The notes under the pieces: model-generated
The model's database searches: none
Told to the model about the DNA's origin: nothing
What the model saw: the letters and a program-made list of their open reading frames with translations, nothing else
Origin: Rhodothermus profundi
Lineage (GTDB): Bacteria; Bacteroidota; Rhodothermia; Rhodothermales; Rhodothermaceae
DNA length: 64,000 nt
Direction: 5' to 3'
Assembly: GCF_900142415.1 (NCBI RefSeq)
Contig: NZ_FRAU01000002.1
Coordinates: forward strand, 248,001 to 312,000
Position numbers and translations under genes: made by a program
In this document: in pieces, positions 52,642 to 58,024 of the stretch
Numbering within the stretch: the first letter of the stretch is position 1
How the letters are laid out: each line of letters begins with the position of its first letter

Positions 52642-53331
52642 ATGGTCCCTTGTATGAAAGCCTGGCTGCGTGGATTCTGGGCGGTCTTCGAAAAGGATAT
52701 TAAGCTGGAACTGCGGGCCCGCTACGCCATCAACATGCTGTTGCTGTTTGCGCTGGGCGCGCTAGTAGTGATGGCGTTTGCGGTGGGGCCCACGCCGCTG
52801 AGCGCGCGCGTGCAGGCTGCGCTGCTGTGGACAGTCCTGTTGTTTGCGGCGGCTGTGGGGCTGGGCCGGGCTTTCATCAGCGAGGAAGAGCGGGGCACGA
52901 TGCTGCTTTTGCAGCTTAATCTGCGGCCGGGTGCGGTTTATGCCGGGAAGTTGCTGGTGAATTTTGTGCTGCTGCTGGCGCTGAATCTGGTTGCGGTGGG
53001 AGCGTTTACCGTGTTACTGCGAGTGAAAATCGCCTGGCCGGGGCTGCTGATGCTGACGCTTGTGCTGGGGTCGATCGGACTGGCAGGGGCAACAACCCTG
53101 CTGAGCGCGCTGATTGCCCGGGCGGCAGGAGGGCGGGGTGCCTTGTTGCCCGTGTTGCTGTTTCCAGTGCTGGTACCGCTATTGCTTTCGGCCGTTGAGG
53201 CGACACGCAGCGCGTTGCTGGTGGCTGAGGGATGGGCAACAGCGGCCGATGAATTGCTGACGCTCGTGGGGTTTGGAGGAGCTGTCATTACAGCAGCCGT
53301 GCTCCTGTTTGAGTATATCTGGCTCGACTGA
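52642..53331 (+). CDS. ccmB: Haem exporter permease CcmB
   Basis: 229 residues with six membrane helices. The start (a second ATG at 52654 is equally possible), the early FEKDIKLELRARYAINMLLLFALGAL and the FISEEERGTMLLLQLNLRPGAVYAGKL segment match CcmB, the membrane part of the CcmAB ABC transporter in cytochrome c maturation (System I). The ATPase CcmA is not encoded next to it. It overlaps nothing and ends 4 bases before ccmC. Confidence 0.9.
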   Translation: MVPCMKAWLRGFWAVFEKDIKLELRARYAINMLLLFALGALVVMAFAVGPTPLSARVQAALLWTVLLFAAAVGLGRAFISEEERGTMLLLQLNLRPGAVYAGKLLVNFVLLLALNLVAVGAFTVLLRVKIAWPGLLMLTLVLGSIGLAGATTLLSALIARAAGGRGALLPVLLFPVLVPLLLSAVEATRSALLVAEGWATAADELLTLVGFGGAVITAAVLLFEYIWLD

Positions 53332-53335
53332 AACC

Positions 53336-54064
53336 ATGACCGAACCAACTGCCCCTGTGAATCTGCGGCGTTACCGGCGTATTCGGAATGCCGTAGTGGT
53401 GTGGCTGACGCTCGTCATCGTGGGCGCTTTCCTGTTGCGCATTCCACGCATTCATATTCTGGAGCATACCGCGCGTAACCTGTATTTTCATGTGCCGATG
53501 TGGTTTACGCTGATGGCTGCGGCGCTGGTATCGGCCTATCATTCGTTGCGCTACCTGCAATCAGGCGATCCGATTCGGGATTTGCGGGCACGTGAGGCGG
53601 CGCGGGTCGGAATCGCTTTTGGTCTGCTCGGGCTGGCCACTGGAATCGTCTGGGCGCGCTTTACCTGGTATCTGGGCACGTCACTCTGGTGGAATTTCGA
53701 CCCCAAACAGTCGTTTGTGGTCATTCAACTCCTGATCTACGGCGCGTATTTTGTGTTGCGGGGGGCGGTGGAAGATCCGGAAAAGCGTGGGCGCGTGGCG
53801 GCTGTCTACAACCTGTTTGCCTGTGTGACCATGCCCTTTTTGCTGTACGTGTTGCCGCGCCAGATGGAAAGTCTCCATCCGGGCGCCGAAGGTAGCCCGG
53901 CGTTCAGTGACATTACGCATCCGATCATGCGGCTGGTATTCTACCCGGCGGTGATCGGATTCATCGGGTTGTTCTGGGTGCTCTACACGCAACGGGTGCG
54001 GCTGGCGCTGCTTGAGCGGCGTCTGGAAATGCTGCAAGCCACCATGCTGGAGGCCAAGTCATGA
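53336..54064 (+). CDS. ccmC: Cytochrome c assembly membrane protein CcmC
   Basis: 243 residues from the ATG at 53336. It has six membrane helices and the tryptophan-rich haem-handling motif as TSLWWNFDPKQSF. The two external histidines are likely His in LYFHVPMWF and in ITHPIM. CcmC loads haem onto CcmE. The start codon follows the ccmB stop by 4 bases and the stop overlaps the next gene by 4 bases. Confidence 0.9.
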   Translation: MTEPTAPVNLRRYRRIRNAVVVWLTLVIVGAFLLRIPRIHILEHTARNLYFHVPMWFTLMAAALVSAYHSLRYLQSGDPIRDLRAREAARVGIAFGLLGLATGIVWARFTWYLGTSLWWNFDPKQSFVVIQLLIYGAYFVLRGAVEDPEKRGRVAAVYNLFACVTMPFLLYVLPRQMESLHPGAEGSPAFSDITHPIMRLVFYPAVIGFIGLFWVLYTQRVRLALLERRLEMLQATMLEAKS

Positions 54065-54333
54065 ATCTGCGAGCCCTGAGCGATACAACCGAAACAGGCC
54101 TGGCCACACCCTATGATACGGTCTGGGCCACAGCGTCCGTGCCGACAAAACCTCCAGAGGGCATTGAGCGCGTGATGCTGGCCGAAGACAAGCTTTACGT
54201 GGTGCTGGCCGTTGTGCTGATTATCTGGTTCGGATTGATCTTCTTTGTGTTCCGGACCGATCGGAAACTTGATCGGCTGGAACGCACGTTGCAAGAACGT
54301 ATTCCGGAAGCAAACGCAGGCCTTACGCCATGA
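54061..54333 (+). CDS. CcmD-like small membrane protein
   Basis: 90 residues with one membrane helix (LYVVLAVVLIIWFGLIFFVF) near residue 45-65 followed by a charged cytoplasmic-type tail (RTDRKLDRLERTLQER), the topology of CcmD. CcmD helps release haem-loaded CcmE from the CcmABC complex. The N-terminal 40 residues are longer than in classical CcmD. Position between ccmC and ccmE, with 4-base overlaps on both sides, supports the call. Confidence 0.78.
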   Translation: MNLRALSDTTETGLATPYDTVWATASVPTKPPEGIERVMLAEDKLYVVLAVVLIIWFGLIFFVFRTDRKLDRLERTLQERIPEANAGLTP

Positions 54334-54767
54334 ACAAGCGCTTGATAAAAACCCTGGTAGGAGTAACCCTGCTGGGCGGCTTTTTTACCATGGTGATGCT
54401 GAGCTTTGGAGAAAAGGTGGGCGGTTACATGAGCTTTGAGGAAGCGGCTGCCAGCGGGGCCGAAGCCCACGTGGTGGGCCAGTGGGTGCCAGAGCGGCCC
54501 GTGCATTACGATCCGGCCCGGAACGTGTTTAGTTTCTACATGCGGGATGCGGAAGGGGTAGTGCGCCGCGTCGAATACCCCAATCTCAAGCCGGCCAACT
54601 TTGAAGATGCCGAGCAACTGGTGGTGATGGGACGTATGGAGGGGGAGGTGTTTCATGCGCGGGAGATTTTGATGAAGTGTCCCTCCAAGTACAATGACAT
54701 GCGCGCGCTGGAATCCTCCGGCACACCTTCCCGCACAACCCGCATGCCGACTCTTCCCAATGAATAA
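54330..54767 (+). CDS. ccmE: Haem chaperone CcmE, CxxxY variant
   Basis: 145 residues with an N-terminal membrane anchor and the small CcmE beta-barrel (FYMRDAEGVVRRVEY, QLVVMGRMEGEVFHAREIL). In E. coli CcmE haem binds covalently to His130 in an HxxxY motif. Here the same place reads MKCPSKY, so Cys117 replaces the histidine and Tyr121 is kept. CxxxY CcmE proteins are known in archaea and some sulfate reducers (System I*), which also lack CcmH. No ccmF, ccmG or ccmH genes are visible nearby. The gene is last in the run and ends at a strong terminator. Confidence 0.9.
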   Translation: MNKRLIKTLVGVTLLGGFFTMVMLSFGEKVGGYMSFEEAAASGAEAHVVGQWVPERPVHYDPARNVFSFYMRDAEGVVRRVEYPNLKPANFEDAEQLVVMGRMEGEVFHAREILMKCPSKYNDMRALESSGTPSRTTRMPTLPNE

Positions 54768-54796
54768 GGGGAAACGGATCTGAGCAGTTGCCATGC

Positions 54797-54826
54797 GCGG
54801 GCTCTTGTGCAGAGCCCGCTTTTTTT
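54797..54826 (+). terminator. Intrinsic terminator of the ccm operon
   Basis: A perfect 9-bp stem (54797-54805 with 54811-54819), 5-base loop and seven T residues (54820-54826). Confidence 0.92.
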
Positions 54827-54853
54827 AGGCTGGTGATTTTTTTCGGAAGGGCT

Positions 54854-54861
54854 TACATTTG
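54854..54861 (+). promoter_or_regulatory. Candidate -7 box for the sortilin-type gene
   Basis: TACATTTG is a perfect TAnnTTTG match 31 bases before the start codon at 54893; the upstream box is not convincing. Confidence 0.4.
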
Positions 54862-54892
54862 GCAGGAACCTTCACCAGCCTTCGATCCGGCC

Positions 54893-57800
54893 ATGCGCTA
54901 CTTACTGCTCCTGCTAGCCTTCCTCTGGATTCCGGGATGGAACGGGCAGACGCAAACGATCCCGACGCCTCCTCATGGGTATGACCCGGCCCTGTTCGAC
55001 ACGCTTCAGTTTCGCATGATTGGCCCCTTTCGAGGGGGACGCTCAACAGCTGTTACAGGAGTGCGCGGCCAGCCACTGGTGCACTACTTTGGAGGAACAG
55101 GAGGTGGAGTCTGGAAGAGCACAGACGGCGGACAGACGTGGCAGAACGTTTCGGATGGCTTTTTTGGCGGATCGATCGGGGCTATTGCCGTCAGTGAATG
55201 GGATCCCAATGTAATCTACGTGGGAGGAGGAGAGGAGTCGATTCGCGGAAACGTCTCCCATGGATACGGCATGTGGAAATCAACCGATGCCGGCAAAACG
55301 TGGACGTTTATCGGACTGCCAGACAGTCGGCACATCGGCGACATTGTGATTCATCCGCGCAATCCTGATCTAGTGTATGTGGCCGTTATGGGGCACGCTT
55401 TCGGTCCCAACAAAGAGCGCGGCGTTTATCGGAGCAAAGACGGGGGCAAGACCTGGGAGCAGATCCTGTTTGTAAATGAAAACACAGGGGCCGTTGATCT
55501 GGCAATGGATCCTACCAATCCCCGCATCCTGTACGCGACGTTCTGGCGGTTCCGGCGCACGCCGTATAGCTTTGAAAGTGGGGGGGAAGGCTCTAGCCTC
55601 TGGAAAAGTACCGACGGAGGCGATACCTGGGTGGAATTAACGCACAACCCGGGCATGCCCGAGCCGCCCATCGGAAAAATCGGCATCACCGTTTCGGCCG
55701 ATCCCAACCGGCTGTACGCCATTGTCGAAGCACACGAAGGCGGGGTCTTCCGCTCAGACGATGGCGGCAAAACCTGGCGGCGCGTGAACGACGACCGTAA
55801 CCTGCGCCAGCGGGCCTGGTATTACAGCCATATCGTGGCCGACCCGAAAGACCCGGACGTCGTCTACGTGCTGAACGTCGGCTTCTGGAAGTCAAAGGAT
55901 GGCGGCCGCACCTTCACGCGCATCCGCACGCCGCACGGCGACCACCACGACCTGTGGATCGACCCGGACAACCCCCAGCATATGATTATCGCCGATGACG
56001 GCGGGGCGCAGGTAACCTACGACGGCGGAAAGAACTGGACCACCTACTACAACCAGCCCACAGCCCAGTTCTATCGGGTCACCACCGACAACGTCTTCCC
56101 CTACCGCATCTATGGCGCCCAGCAGGACAACTCAACGGTGCGCATCTACAGCCGCTCGGACGGTCCCGGCATTTCCGAACGCGACTGGGAACCGACAGCA
56201 GGGGGAGAAAGCGGCTGGCTCGCGCCCGATCCGAAAGATCCCGAAATTGTGTACGGCGGCTCGTACGGAGGCTACCTGGAACGTTACGACCACCGCACCC
56301 GCCAGCGACGGCGCGTAGATATCTGGCCCGATAACCCCATGGGACATGGGGCTAAAGACCTGAAATATCGTTTTAACTGGAACTTCCCCATTCTCTTTTC
56401 GCGGCACGACCCCAACGTGCTGTATGCGGCTGCCAATGTACTGTTTAGAACCACCAACGAAGGACAGAGCTGGGAACAGATCAGCCCAGATCTTACGCGC
56501 AACGACACGACTAAGATGGGGCCATCGGGCGGTCCCATCACCAAAGATAACACCAGCGTAGAATACTACGGGACAATCTTCGCGCTGGCCGAGTCGGTGC
56601 ATGAACCCGGCGTGATCTGGACCGGATCGGACGATGGCCTGATCTACCTGACGCGCGACGGGGGCAAAACCTGGACGAACGTGACGCCGCCTCCGTCGAT
56701 CATGCCCGAATGGATTCAGATCAATAGCATCGAACCGGATCCCTTTAATCCAGGTGGCCTGTACGTCGCAGCCACTATGTACAAGTGGGACGACTTTCGT
56801 CCCTATCTCTACAAAACAAAAGATTATGGCCGCACCTGGGAGAAAATCACCAATGGGATTGCCGAGGATCACTTTACCCGGGTCATCCGGGCCGATCCGG
56901 AACGTCCCGGACTCCTCTTTGCCGGTACCGAAAGCGGCCTGTACGTCTCCTTCGACGATGGAGAACACTGGCAGCGATTCCAGCTCAATCTGCCGATCGT
57001 GCCCATCACGGATCTGGCTATCAAGGGTACAGATCTGATTGTGGCCACGCAGGGACGGAGTTTCTGGGTGCTGGATCATCTGGAAGTGCTCCGTCAGCTT
57101 ACGCCTGAGCTGGCCCGCCAGGAAGTTATTCTGTTTAAACCCAAAGATACCTATCGGCTGCGCGGAGGGTTCAGGCGGCGCCCGCCCGGCGGACTGGGCG
57201 AAAACCCACCGGCCGGCGTGGTCATCTTTTTCTATCTGAAAGAAAAACCGGACACGGCTACCGTCGTCAAGCTGGAAATCCTGGAGGAAGATGGCGATGT
57301 GATCCGGACGTTTGCGACCAATGCGAAAAAAGAACGGGATCGCTTGAAGGTGCGGGCCGGTAGCAACAAGTTTGTCTGGGATATGCGCTATCCGGACGCC
57401 GAGGGCTTCGAAGGGTTGATCCTGTGGGCAGCCAGTCTGCGCGGACCGATGGCCCCGCCGGGCACTTATCGGGTACGCCTCACGGTAGGCGACCAGGTGC
57501 AAGAGCAGACCTTCCGTTTGCTCAAAGATCCCCGGAGTAAGGCCACCGATGAAGACCTGCAGGCGCAGTTTGCCTTCCTGATGGAAGTGCGGGATAAGCT
57601 TTCGGAAGTGCACCGTACGATAAAGCACATTCGGGAAATTCGGCAGGACATTCGACGGGTGCTCCGGCGCCTGCCAGACGATTCCACCGGCATGGCCCTG
57701 CGTCGCCAGGGGCGTGCCATTGTTCAGAAATTGACCGAGGTTGAAGAAGCGCTGTACCAGACCAGGAACCGGGCACCGCAGGACCCGCTGAACTTCCCGA

Positions 57801-58024
57801 TCCGGCTTAACAATAAGCTGGCCGCCCTCATGGGCGTGGTCGGTACAGGCGATTTTCGACCCACGGATCAGGCTGTTGCCGTGAAGAACGAACTGGTGGC
57901 CCAGATCGATGACTGGCTGGCCCGCTACCGGGATGTCGTTGCCCGCGAGCTGGCCGCCTTCAATGAGGCGGTGCTGGCGCTGCGGCTGCCCCCCGTGGCT
58001 GTGCCGGCCGCCTCTGAAGAATAA
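54893..58024 (+). CDS. Exported sortilin/VPS10-type BNR-repeat protein
   Basis: About 1043 residues from the ATG at 54893, which gives a signal peptide (MRYLLLLLAFLWIPGWNGQ). At least ten Asp-box (BNR) repeats of the type S/K-x-DGG-x-TW are seen (for example KSTDGGQTW, RSKDGGKTW, RSDDGGKTW, KTKDYGRTW), building one or two beta-propellers as in VPS10/sortilin and some sialidase- or xyloglucanase-like families. A helical domain follows at about 890-1040. No T9SS sorting domain is present. Catalytic residues cannot be picked out, so binding or hydrolase function is open. It is bounded by terminators on both sides. Confidence 0.85.
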   Translation: MRYLLLLLAFLWIPGWNGQTQTIPTPPHGYDPALFDTLQFRMIGPFRGGRSTAVTGVRGQPLVHYFGGTGGGVWKSTDGGQTWQNVSDGFFGGSIGAIAVSEWDPNVIYVGGGEESIRGNVSHGYGMWKSTDAGKTWTFIGLPDSRHIGDIVIHPRNPDLVYVAVMGHAFGPNKERGVYRSKDGGKTWEQILFVNENTGAVDLAMDPTNPRILYATFWRFRRTPYSFESGGEGSSLWKSTDGGDTWVELTHNPGMPEPPIGKIGITVSADPNRLYAIVEAHEGGVFRSDDGGKTWRRVNDDRNLRQRAWYYSHIVADPKDPDVVYVLNVGFWKSKDGGRTFTRIRTPHGDHHDLWIDPDNPQHMIIADDGGAQVTYDGGKNWTTYYNQPTAQFYRVTTDNVFPYRIYGAQQDNSTVRIYSRSDGPGISERDWEPTAGGESGWLAPDPKDPEIVYGGSYGGYLERYDHRTRQRRRVDIWPDNPMGHGAKDLKYRFNWNFPILFSRHDPNVLYAAANVLFRTTNEGQSWEQISPDLTRNDTTKMGPSGGPITKDNTSVEYYGTIFALAESVHEPGVIWTGSDDGLIYLTRDGGKTWTNVTPPPSIMPEWIQINSIEPDPFNPGGLYVAATMYKWDDFRPYLYKTKDYGRTWEKITNGIAEDHFTRVIRADPERPGLLFAGTESGLYVSFDDGEHWQRFQLNLPIVPITDLAIKGTDLIVATQGRSFWVLDHLEVLRQLTPELARQEVILFKPKDTYRLRGGFRRRPPGGLGENPPAGVVIFFYLKEKPDTATVVKLEILEEDGDVIRTFATNAKKERDRLKVRAGSNKFVWDMRYPDAEGFEGLILWAASLRGPMAPPGTYRVRLTVGDQVQEQTFRLLKDPRSKATDEDLQAQFAFLMEVRDKLSEVHRTIKHIREIRQDIRRVLRRLPDDSTGMALRRQGRAIVQKLTEVEEALYQTRNRAPQDPLNFPIRLNNKLAALMGVVGTGDFRPTDQAVAVKNELVAQIDDWLARYRDVVARELAAFNEAVLALRLPPVAVPAASEE

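Follow-up and report, generated by a model that had tools for sequence, protein, structure and literature searches.

A cysteine-type CcmE in a dispersed System I cytochrome c maturation pathway of Rhodothermus profundi

Gene content of the ccmBCDE locus

The window analyzed here is a stretch of 64,000 nucleotides from Rhodothermus profundi (contig NZ_FRAU01000002.1, positions 248,001 to 312,000) and contains a cluster of four cytochrome c maturation genes, ccmBCDE, at positions 52642 to 54767 (Table 1). The last gene of the cluster encodes a CcmE of 145 aa, and the ccmC/ccmD and ccmD/ccmE junctions are overlaps in which an ATG lies over a stop codon. We placed the start of ccmC at an in-frame ATG, the open frame itself beginning at a TTG at position 53273. 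All four genes, as well as ccmF (located elsewhere in the genome), are open frames without breaks. The gene directly following ccmE, at positions 54788 to 58024 of the same strand, encodes a large Sortilin-Vps10/BNR-repeat protein.

Table 1. Features of the ccm cluster and their coordinates in the window
Feature	Coordinates	Strand	Remarks
ccmB, haem-exporter permease subunit	52642..53331	+	PF03379, 81.6 bits (cutoff 24.9)
ccmC, WWD-family haem-handling protein	53336..54064	+	PF01578, 64.1 bits (cutoff 29.9)
ccmD, small membrane protein	54061..54333	+	PF20077 (CcmD_alt), 40.8 bits (cutoff 23.5)
ccmE, haem chaperone with CPSKY	54330..54767	+	PF03100; start overlaps ccmD stop
CPSKY codons	54678..54692	+	Cys117 (predicted haem attachment) to Tyr121 (predicted axial ligand)

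The assignments of CcmB through CcmF rest on Pfam matches, structure, and gene order, and all five proteins score under the cutoffs of the curated NCBI models: 39.7 bits for ccmB against TIGR01190 (cutoff 156.2), 67.7 bits for ccmC against TIGR01191 (cutoff 186), and 23.8 bits for ccmD against TIGR04391, which is barely under the cutoff of 24. CcmE passes the Pfam model at 48.5 bits (cutoff 24.6) and remains below all NCBIfam CcmE models (the best, NF009727, gives 36 of the 126 bits required); these equivalog models appear to cover narrower groups.

Motif and predicted fold of CcmE

The C-terminal sequence of CcmE reads ...HAREILMKCPSKYNDMRALESS... and contains both Cys117 and Tyr121. When aligned through profiles, Cys117 falls on His130 of the Escherichia coli protein (1sr3/8ce8, ...LAKHDENY) and Tyr121 on Tyr134, and Cys117 likewise falls on the cysteine of Desulfovibrio vulgaris CcmE (2kct, ...TKCP). 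The sequence-only reading, which had Cys117-Pro-Ser-Lys-Tyr121 standing in place of the HxxxY motif, is thereby confirmed. A profile search of all contigs returned this single CcmE and no second, HxxxY-bearing copy. Similarity to E. coli CcmE is weak in a single-sequence comparison (E = 8e-4), and the profile scores (26.4 bits for E. coli and 26.2 bits for Desulfovibrio) place the protein at a nearly equal distance from the histidine- and cysteine-type representatives.

An AlphaFold2 model of CcmE, built from the single sequence and of moderate confidence (mean pLDDT, 69), has a membrane helix at residues 3 to 27 and six strands, the last of which stops at residue 116, just before Cys117. Among the six top-ranking PDB entries that match this model, five are CcmE structures (8ce8, 1lm0, 1j6q, 1sr3, and 2kct, with E-values of 2e-5 to 1e-3), the fifth-ranked match being a nuclear-pore protein. 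The N-terminal membrane anchor and OB-type beta-barrel expected of a CcmE are thus predicted to be present, at the moderate confidence of the model. The literature that we searched yielded no biochemistry on the R. profundi protein.

Distribution of the cysteine form in the order and phylum

The cysteine was present in the CcmE of every one of the 228 genomes of the phylum in which we read the motif (109 from the same order and 119 from other orders), so the CPSKY motif is not a chance occurrence. Of the 114 genomes in the order, 109 encode a protein matching CcmE; among genomes with a completeness of 90% or more and a contamination of 5% or less, the figure is 77 of 77. The first four residues, C-P-S-K, are invariant in these 109 proteins and the full CPSKY is found in 108; the remaining frame, in a partial genome (G060, L121), departs after CPSK, owing to a frameshift or an assembly error. 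Another genome of the order (G002) has two CcmE genes separated by about 8 kb (C115:15294 and 23325; L011 and L161), both with CPSKY.

Outside the order, 118 of the 119 proteins read have CPSKY and one has CPSRY. These 119 genomes comprise 68 from a search of a phylum sample (in which 270 of 392 genomes have a CcmE), 2 others, and 49 from one family, whose fiftieth match (G509) was under the cutoff and was left out. The 68 consist of the 27 best-scoring genomes and others scoring lower among the matches listed (E-values up to about 1e-12); weaker matches were left out of the motif count, including those of f18, the family with the most genomes of the same class outside the order. A further 80 named loci, from Rhodothermus sp. 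(84% identical), Pedobacter, Sphingobacterium, Chitinophaga, and others, also have CPSKY, and we exclude them from the 228, as they were found by the pattern ILxKCPSKY and could show nothing else. Judging by these named relatives, the phylum is Bacteroidota.

As far as its sequences have been read, then, the cysteine form is general in the phylum, and R. profundi CcmE represents a known variant in typical form. The lineage is not unusual for this variant, and the finding in the window adds little by itself. The phylum has many cultured members, and with only the cysteine form seen, it offers many natural test cases. The sequence-only reading gave archaea and some sulfate reducers as the known carriers of the CxxxY form; a 2011 review names the delta-proteobacteria, chloroflexi, and firmicutes in addition to archaea (PMC3601427). 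It also places on record the cysteine-type CcmE, System I*, covalent haem binding, and activity in E. coli when CcmH and CcmG are missing (PMC3601427); a second source on the subject is PMC3884852. Searching by titles and the beginnings of abstracts, with partial coverage of the literature, we found no paper dealing with which type of CcmE occurs in Rhodothermus or Bacteroidota.

The change from histidine to cysteine could have occurred independently in this phylum rather than being shared with other System I* proteins, as the near-equal scores against E. coli and Desulfovibrio would allow. We consider this improbable: the same pentapeptide recurs across the phylum, in a Metabacillus plasmid, and, by the count in the 2011 review, in 25 of 36 genomes (PMC3601427). 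A common origin or transfer would better fit a motif so widely found.

Maturation genes elsewhere in the genome

The R. profundi genome (3.14 Mb in 18 contigs, 99.7% complete) was searched for ccmA, ccmF, ccmG, and ccmH, as the sequence-only reading had proposed; with this contig number and completeness, there is a small chance that a gene was missed. Only two proteins match PF01578, namely, CcmC and, on another contig, CcmF, from which it follows that there is no CcsA, the PF01578-type protein of System II. CcmF (818 aa) has the Thermus thermophilus CcmF structure 6zmq as its only PDB match (E = 1.7e-48) and matches the NCBI CcmF/NrfE models under their cutoffs. Its residues H191, H278, H322, and H538 align to H173, H261, H303, and H491 of E. 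coli CcmF, which we take, following the CcmF literature, to be the key haem-handling residues; these four histidines, together with W257, W259, and D260, are kept in at least 95% of 58 aligned CcmF proteins.

CcmA, the least certain of the ccmA–F assignments, is an ABC ATPase of 214 aa, encoded on a third contig, with a score of 143.2 bits against TIGR01189, slightly over the cutoff of 131.6. It shares 38% identity with a CcmA that is encoded in a ccmABCDEF cluster elsewhere in the phylum (L180), and a CcmA match at E ≤ 1e-25 occurs in 59 of 60 genomes of the order, G033 being the only one without. Two other candidates were rejected. The first, an ABC protein at C1:322911, scores about at the TIGR01189 cutoff (130.6 to 131.8 bits) and sits between NosD-like and NosY-like genes. 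It belongs to a nos-type cluster at C1:319000–325300 (L073, 1–6289), of which only the ATPase was profile-scanned; the other members, presumably reductase-like, NosD-like, permease/NosY-like, and NosL-like, are named from gene order. The second is a ccmA-like fragment just upstream of ccmF (C1:716073–716390; L071, 10074–10391) that covers only profile positions 7 to 113, contains an in-frame TGA, and follows a permease-like gene; as such, it has the appearance of a decayed gene for an unrelated ABC ATPase.

For CcmG (TIGR00385), there are six thioredoxin-like matches in the genome, all under the cutoff (the best with 46.7 of 123.15 bits). Candidate clients are present in the form of six PF13442 matches, five of them over the cutoff, with one CXXCH per frame.

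The expectation that ccmA, ccmF, ccmG, and ccmH would not be adjacent to the cluster was borne out: two separate contigs carry ccmF and ccmA, CcmH is unmatched, and all CcmG-like proteins fall under the cutoff. Of the further suggestion of a "reduced or scattered" system, the second half stands, and the first does not as far as the core is concerned: CcmA, CcmB, CcmC, CcmD, CcmE, and CcmF are all found, and so the system is scattered but not broken. All 17 neighborhoods examined from the order have ccmE, ccmD, and ccmC together, 15 of them also have ccmB, and no ccmA or ccmF was seen inside any of the 17 stretches. In the six genomes of the order that consist of one contig and appear in both the CcmE and the CcmA match lists (G015, G019, G035, G038, G112, and G113), more than 0.5 Mb separates ccmE from the best CcmA match. 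Dispersal thus characterizes the order and does not reflect decay in the R. profundi genome. In three neighborhoods from the phylum outside the order, ccmF follows ccmE, and one of them (L180) is ordered ccmABCDEF.

Were Cys117 no haem ligand at all, and CcmE a remnant or a protein with another task, cytochromes c would have to be matured by other means. This we regard as hardly credible, given a cysteine kept in all 228 genomes, no CcsA to serve a System II, the presence of CXXCH cytochromes, and unbroken frames for ccmBCDE and ccmF.

CcmH in the genome, the phylum, and Metabacillus

The Pfam CcmH model (PF03918) found no match in the R. profundi genome, including among seven first-look candidates that were scored, whereas the positive controls (E. 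coli, Caulobacter, Thermus, and Deinobacterium) were matched. The two genes downstream of ccmF encode a TolB-like and a thioredoxin-like protein, neither of which is a CcmH. Among the 392 genomes of the phylum sample, 379 are without a match; the other 13 match weakly (6 of them over the cutoff), and none of the 13 belongs to this order or class.

A diverged CcmH could still escape the Pfam model, in which case the system would be an ordinary System I with CcmF and CcmH and a cysteine-type CcmE. Such combinations exist: about one third of bacteria with a cysteine-type CcmE keep CcmH, according to the review (PMC3601427). On plasmid pB218 of a Metabacillus sp. (L371, Bacillota), a CPSKY-bearing CcmE is encoded close to a gene annotated as CcmH that is itself divergent, its cysteines not being in the form of LRCxxC, the CcmH motif as given in PMC12285233. 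Segments resembling CcmH also occur in some genomes of the phylum: eight of the 13 weak matches, read by eye (L074 to L081), lack LRCxxC but show CxCGxC...CxC or similar segments, several of them behind a zinc-ribbon-like start. Against these points stand the unmatched R. profundi genome with its working controls, the 379 unmatched genomes of the phylum, and the identity of the genes downstream of ccmF, and we judge an overlooked CcmH to be unlikely. Among the weak matches, L074, L075, L078, L079, L080, and L081 each combine the zinc-ribbon-like start with one or two CcmH-like segments.

We consider it highly probable that the cysteine-type CcmE of R. profundi works in a System I that is complete but has no CcmH. 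The name System I* fits this set, with its cysteine-type CcmE, ccmA–F found, and CcmH unmatched. The more general claim, that CxxxY goes with the absence of CcmH, was too strong, as is evident both from the one third of such bacteria that keep CcmH in the review cited above (PMC3601427) and from the Metabacillus plasmid, which has both.

Proposed route of haem

In R. profundi, haem appears to be loaded onto cytochromes by a chaperone that holds it on a cysteine and not on the textbook histidine. The covalent bond, the axial tyrosine, the order of the steps, and the need for the cysteine are carried over by analogy from work on E. coli, Desulfovibrio, and Methanosarcina. On this basis, CcmA (encoded elsewhere in the genome) together with CcmB, CcmC, and CcmD would load haem onto CcmE, where a haem vinyl group would form a covalent bond, probably a thioether, with Cys117, and Tyr121 would serve as an axial ligand. 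ATP hydrolysis by CcmA would then release holo-CcmE, from which CcmF would take the haem and attach it to the CXXCH motifs of exported apocytochromes without the help of CcmH. The apocytochrome thiols may be held in the reduced state by thioredoxin-like proteins encoded away from the cluster. The Desulfovibrio cysteine-type CcmE binds haem covalently and its operon yields holocytochrome in E. coli (PMC3601427), the CcmE cysteine is required in Methanosarcina acetivorans (PMC9084895), and Tyr134 is proposed as the axial ligand in E. coli (PMC10457321). How the covalent cysteine-haem bond is undone, and how CcmF works without CcmH, are named as open questions in the 2011 review (PMC3601427).

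An enlarged CcmF

R. profundi CcmF (L071:10662–13118, corresponding to about 716661–719117 of C1) is 818 aa long, versus 647 aa in E. coli, and most of the roughly 170 additional residues lie in the last extracytoplasmic region (residues about 553 to 790). The 57 other complete CcmF proteins encoded beside CPSKY-type CcmEs in the named loci, measured from the start of the match, range from 755 to 1,021 aa, with 27 being 809 or 810 aa; because many are from Pedobacter, they are not independent. One of the long proteins (L344) is from a Thermochlorobacteriaceae genome. Outside the group, the comparison covers three CcmF proteins and leaves out that of Desulfovibrio: besides the E. coli protein, these are the T. 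thermophilus CcmF and that of the CcmH-containing Metabacillus cluster, each of 660 aa. The Pfam CcmF_C domain nearly reaches the end of the E. coli and Metabacillus proteins, whereas its best stretch ends at residue 555 of 818 in R. profundi CcmF, where a second stretch also passes.

To judge from modeling, the additional residues appear to form a second extracytoplasmic beta-domain beside an ordinary one. The extracytoplasmic part of Chitinophaga terrae CcmF was modeled with AlphaFold2 (25 sequences; mean pLDDT, 81; pTM, 0.54). In the model, two successive groups of strands are followed by the last membrane helix, and the second group superposes on residues 510 to 609 of T. thermophilus CcmF (Z = 11.3; rmsd, 2.2; 95 residues aligned), ahead of CcsBA (Z = 9.4 and 7.5) and unrelated entries from Z = 6.5 downward. 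This list of structural alignments barely tests the first half of the region, on which the sequence alignment places the domain of E. coli CcmF, in disagreement with the structural aligner, which matched the second half. A Foldseek search with the region gave no PDB match at E ≤ 0.001 (the best was CcsBA 7s9z, at 0.0055) and returned CcmF 6zmq at E = 0.084 with a probability of 1.00. Tandem duplication of the two halves was not seen by sequence profile comparison (hhalign probability, 5%, over 23 columns).

The enlarged CcmF is a concrete candidate for a replacement of CcmH, and, as a hypothesis, it may compensate for the missing protein. Compensation would not extend to thiol chemistry, as the extra part is without CxxC in all 58 proteins (the CxxC of L356, at residue 478, lies ahead of it); a docking role is speculation. 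Rather doubtful, in our view, is the proposal that the Bacteroidota standard is a CcmH-less, cysteine-type System I in which the second beta-domain of CcmF takes over the role of CcmH (or CcmH and CcmI), for example, in apocytochrome docking. The link between long CcmF proteins and the loss of CcmH is a correlation within one group.

Comparison with known systems

The System I* of Desulfovibrio resembles that of R. profundi in having a cysteine for the histidine, ccmA–F, CcmH unmatched, and no CcmG over the cutoff. The two differ in that R. profundi has its ccmBCDE, ccmA, and ccmF apart; R. profundi CcmF also has the putative extra beta-domain, the Desulfovibrio protein lying outside that comparison. 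In M. acetivorans, as described in PMC9084895, CcmABCEF likewise combines a CxxxY-type CcmE with no CcmH and with genes that do not form one operon, but R. profundi has CcmD and a single-chain CcmF in place of the archaeal CcmF1/CcmF2. With the System I of E. coli, encoded by a ccmABCDEFGH operon, R. profundi shares homologues of CcmA through CcmF and the CcmF histidines and WWD residues, and it departs from it in the cysteine at the position of His130, an unmatched CcmH, no CcmG over the cutoff, the longer CcmF, and genes outside a single operon. The ccm genes of Metabacillus plasmid pB218 have the CPSKY-type CcmE in common with R. profundi and, unlike those of R. profundi, form one cluster, which includes the annotated CcmH, a TlpA-family protein, and the shorter CcmF.
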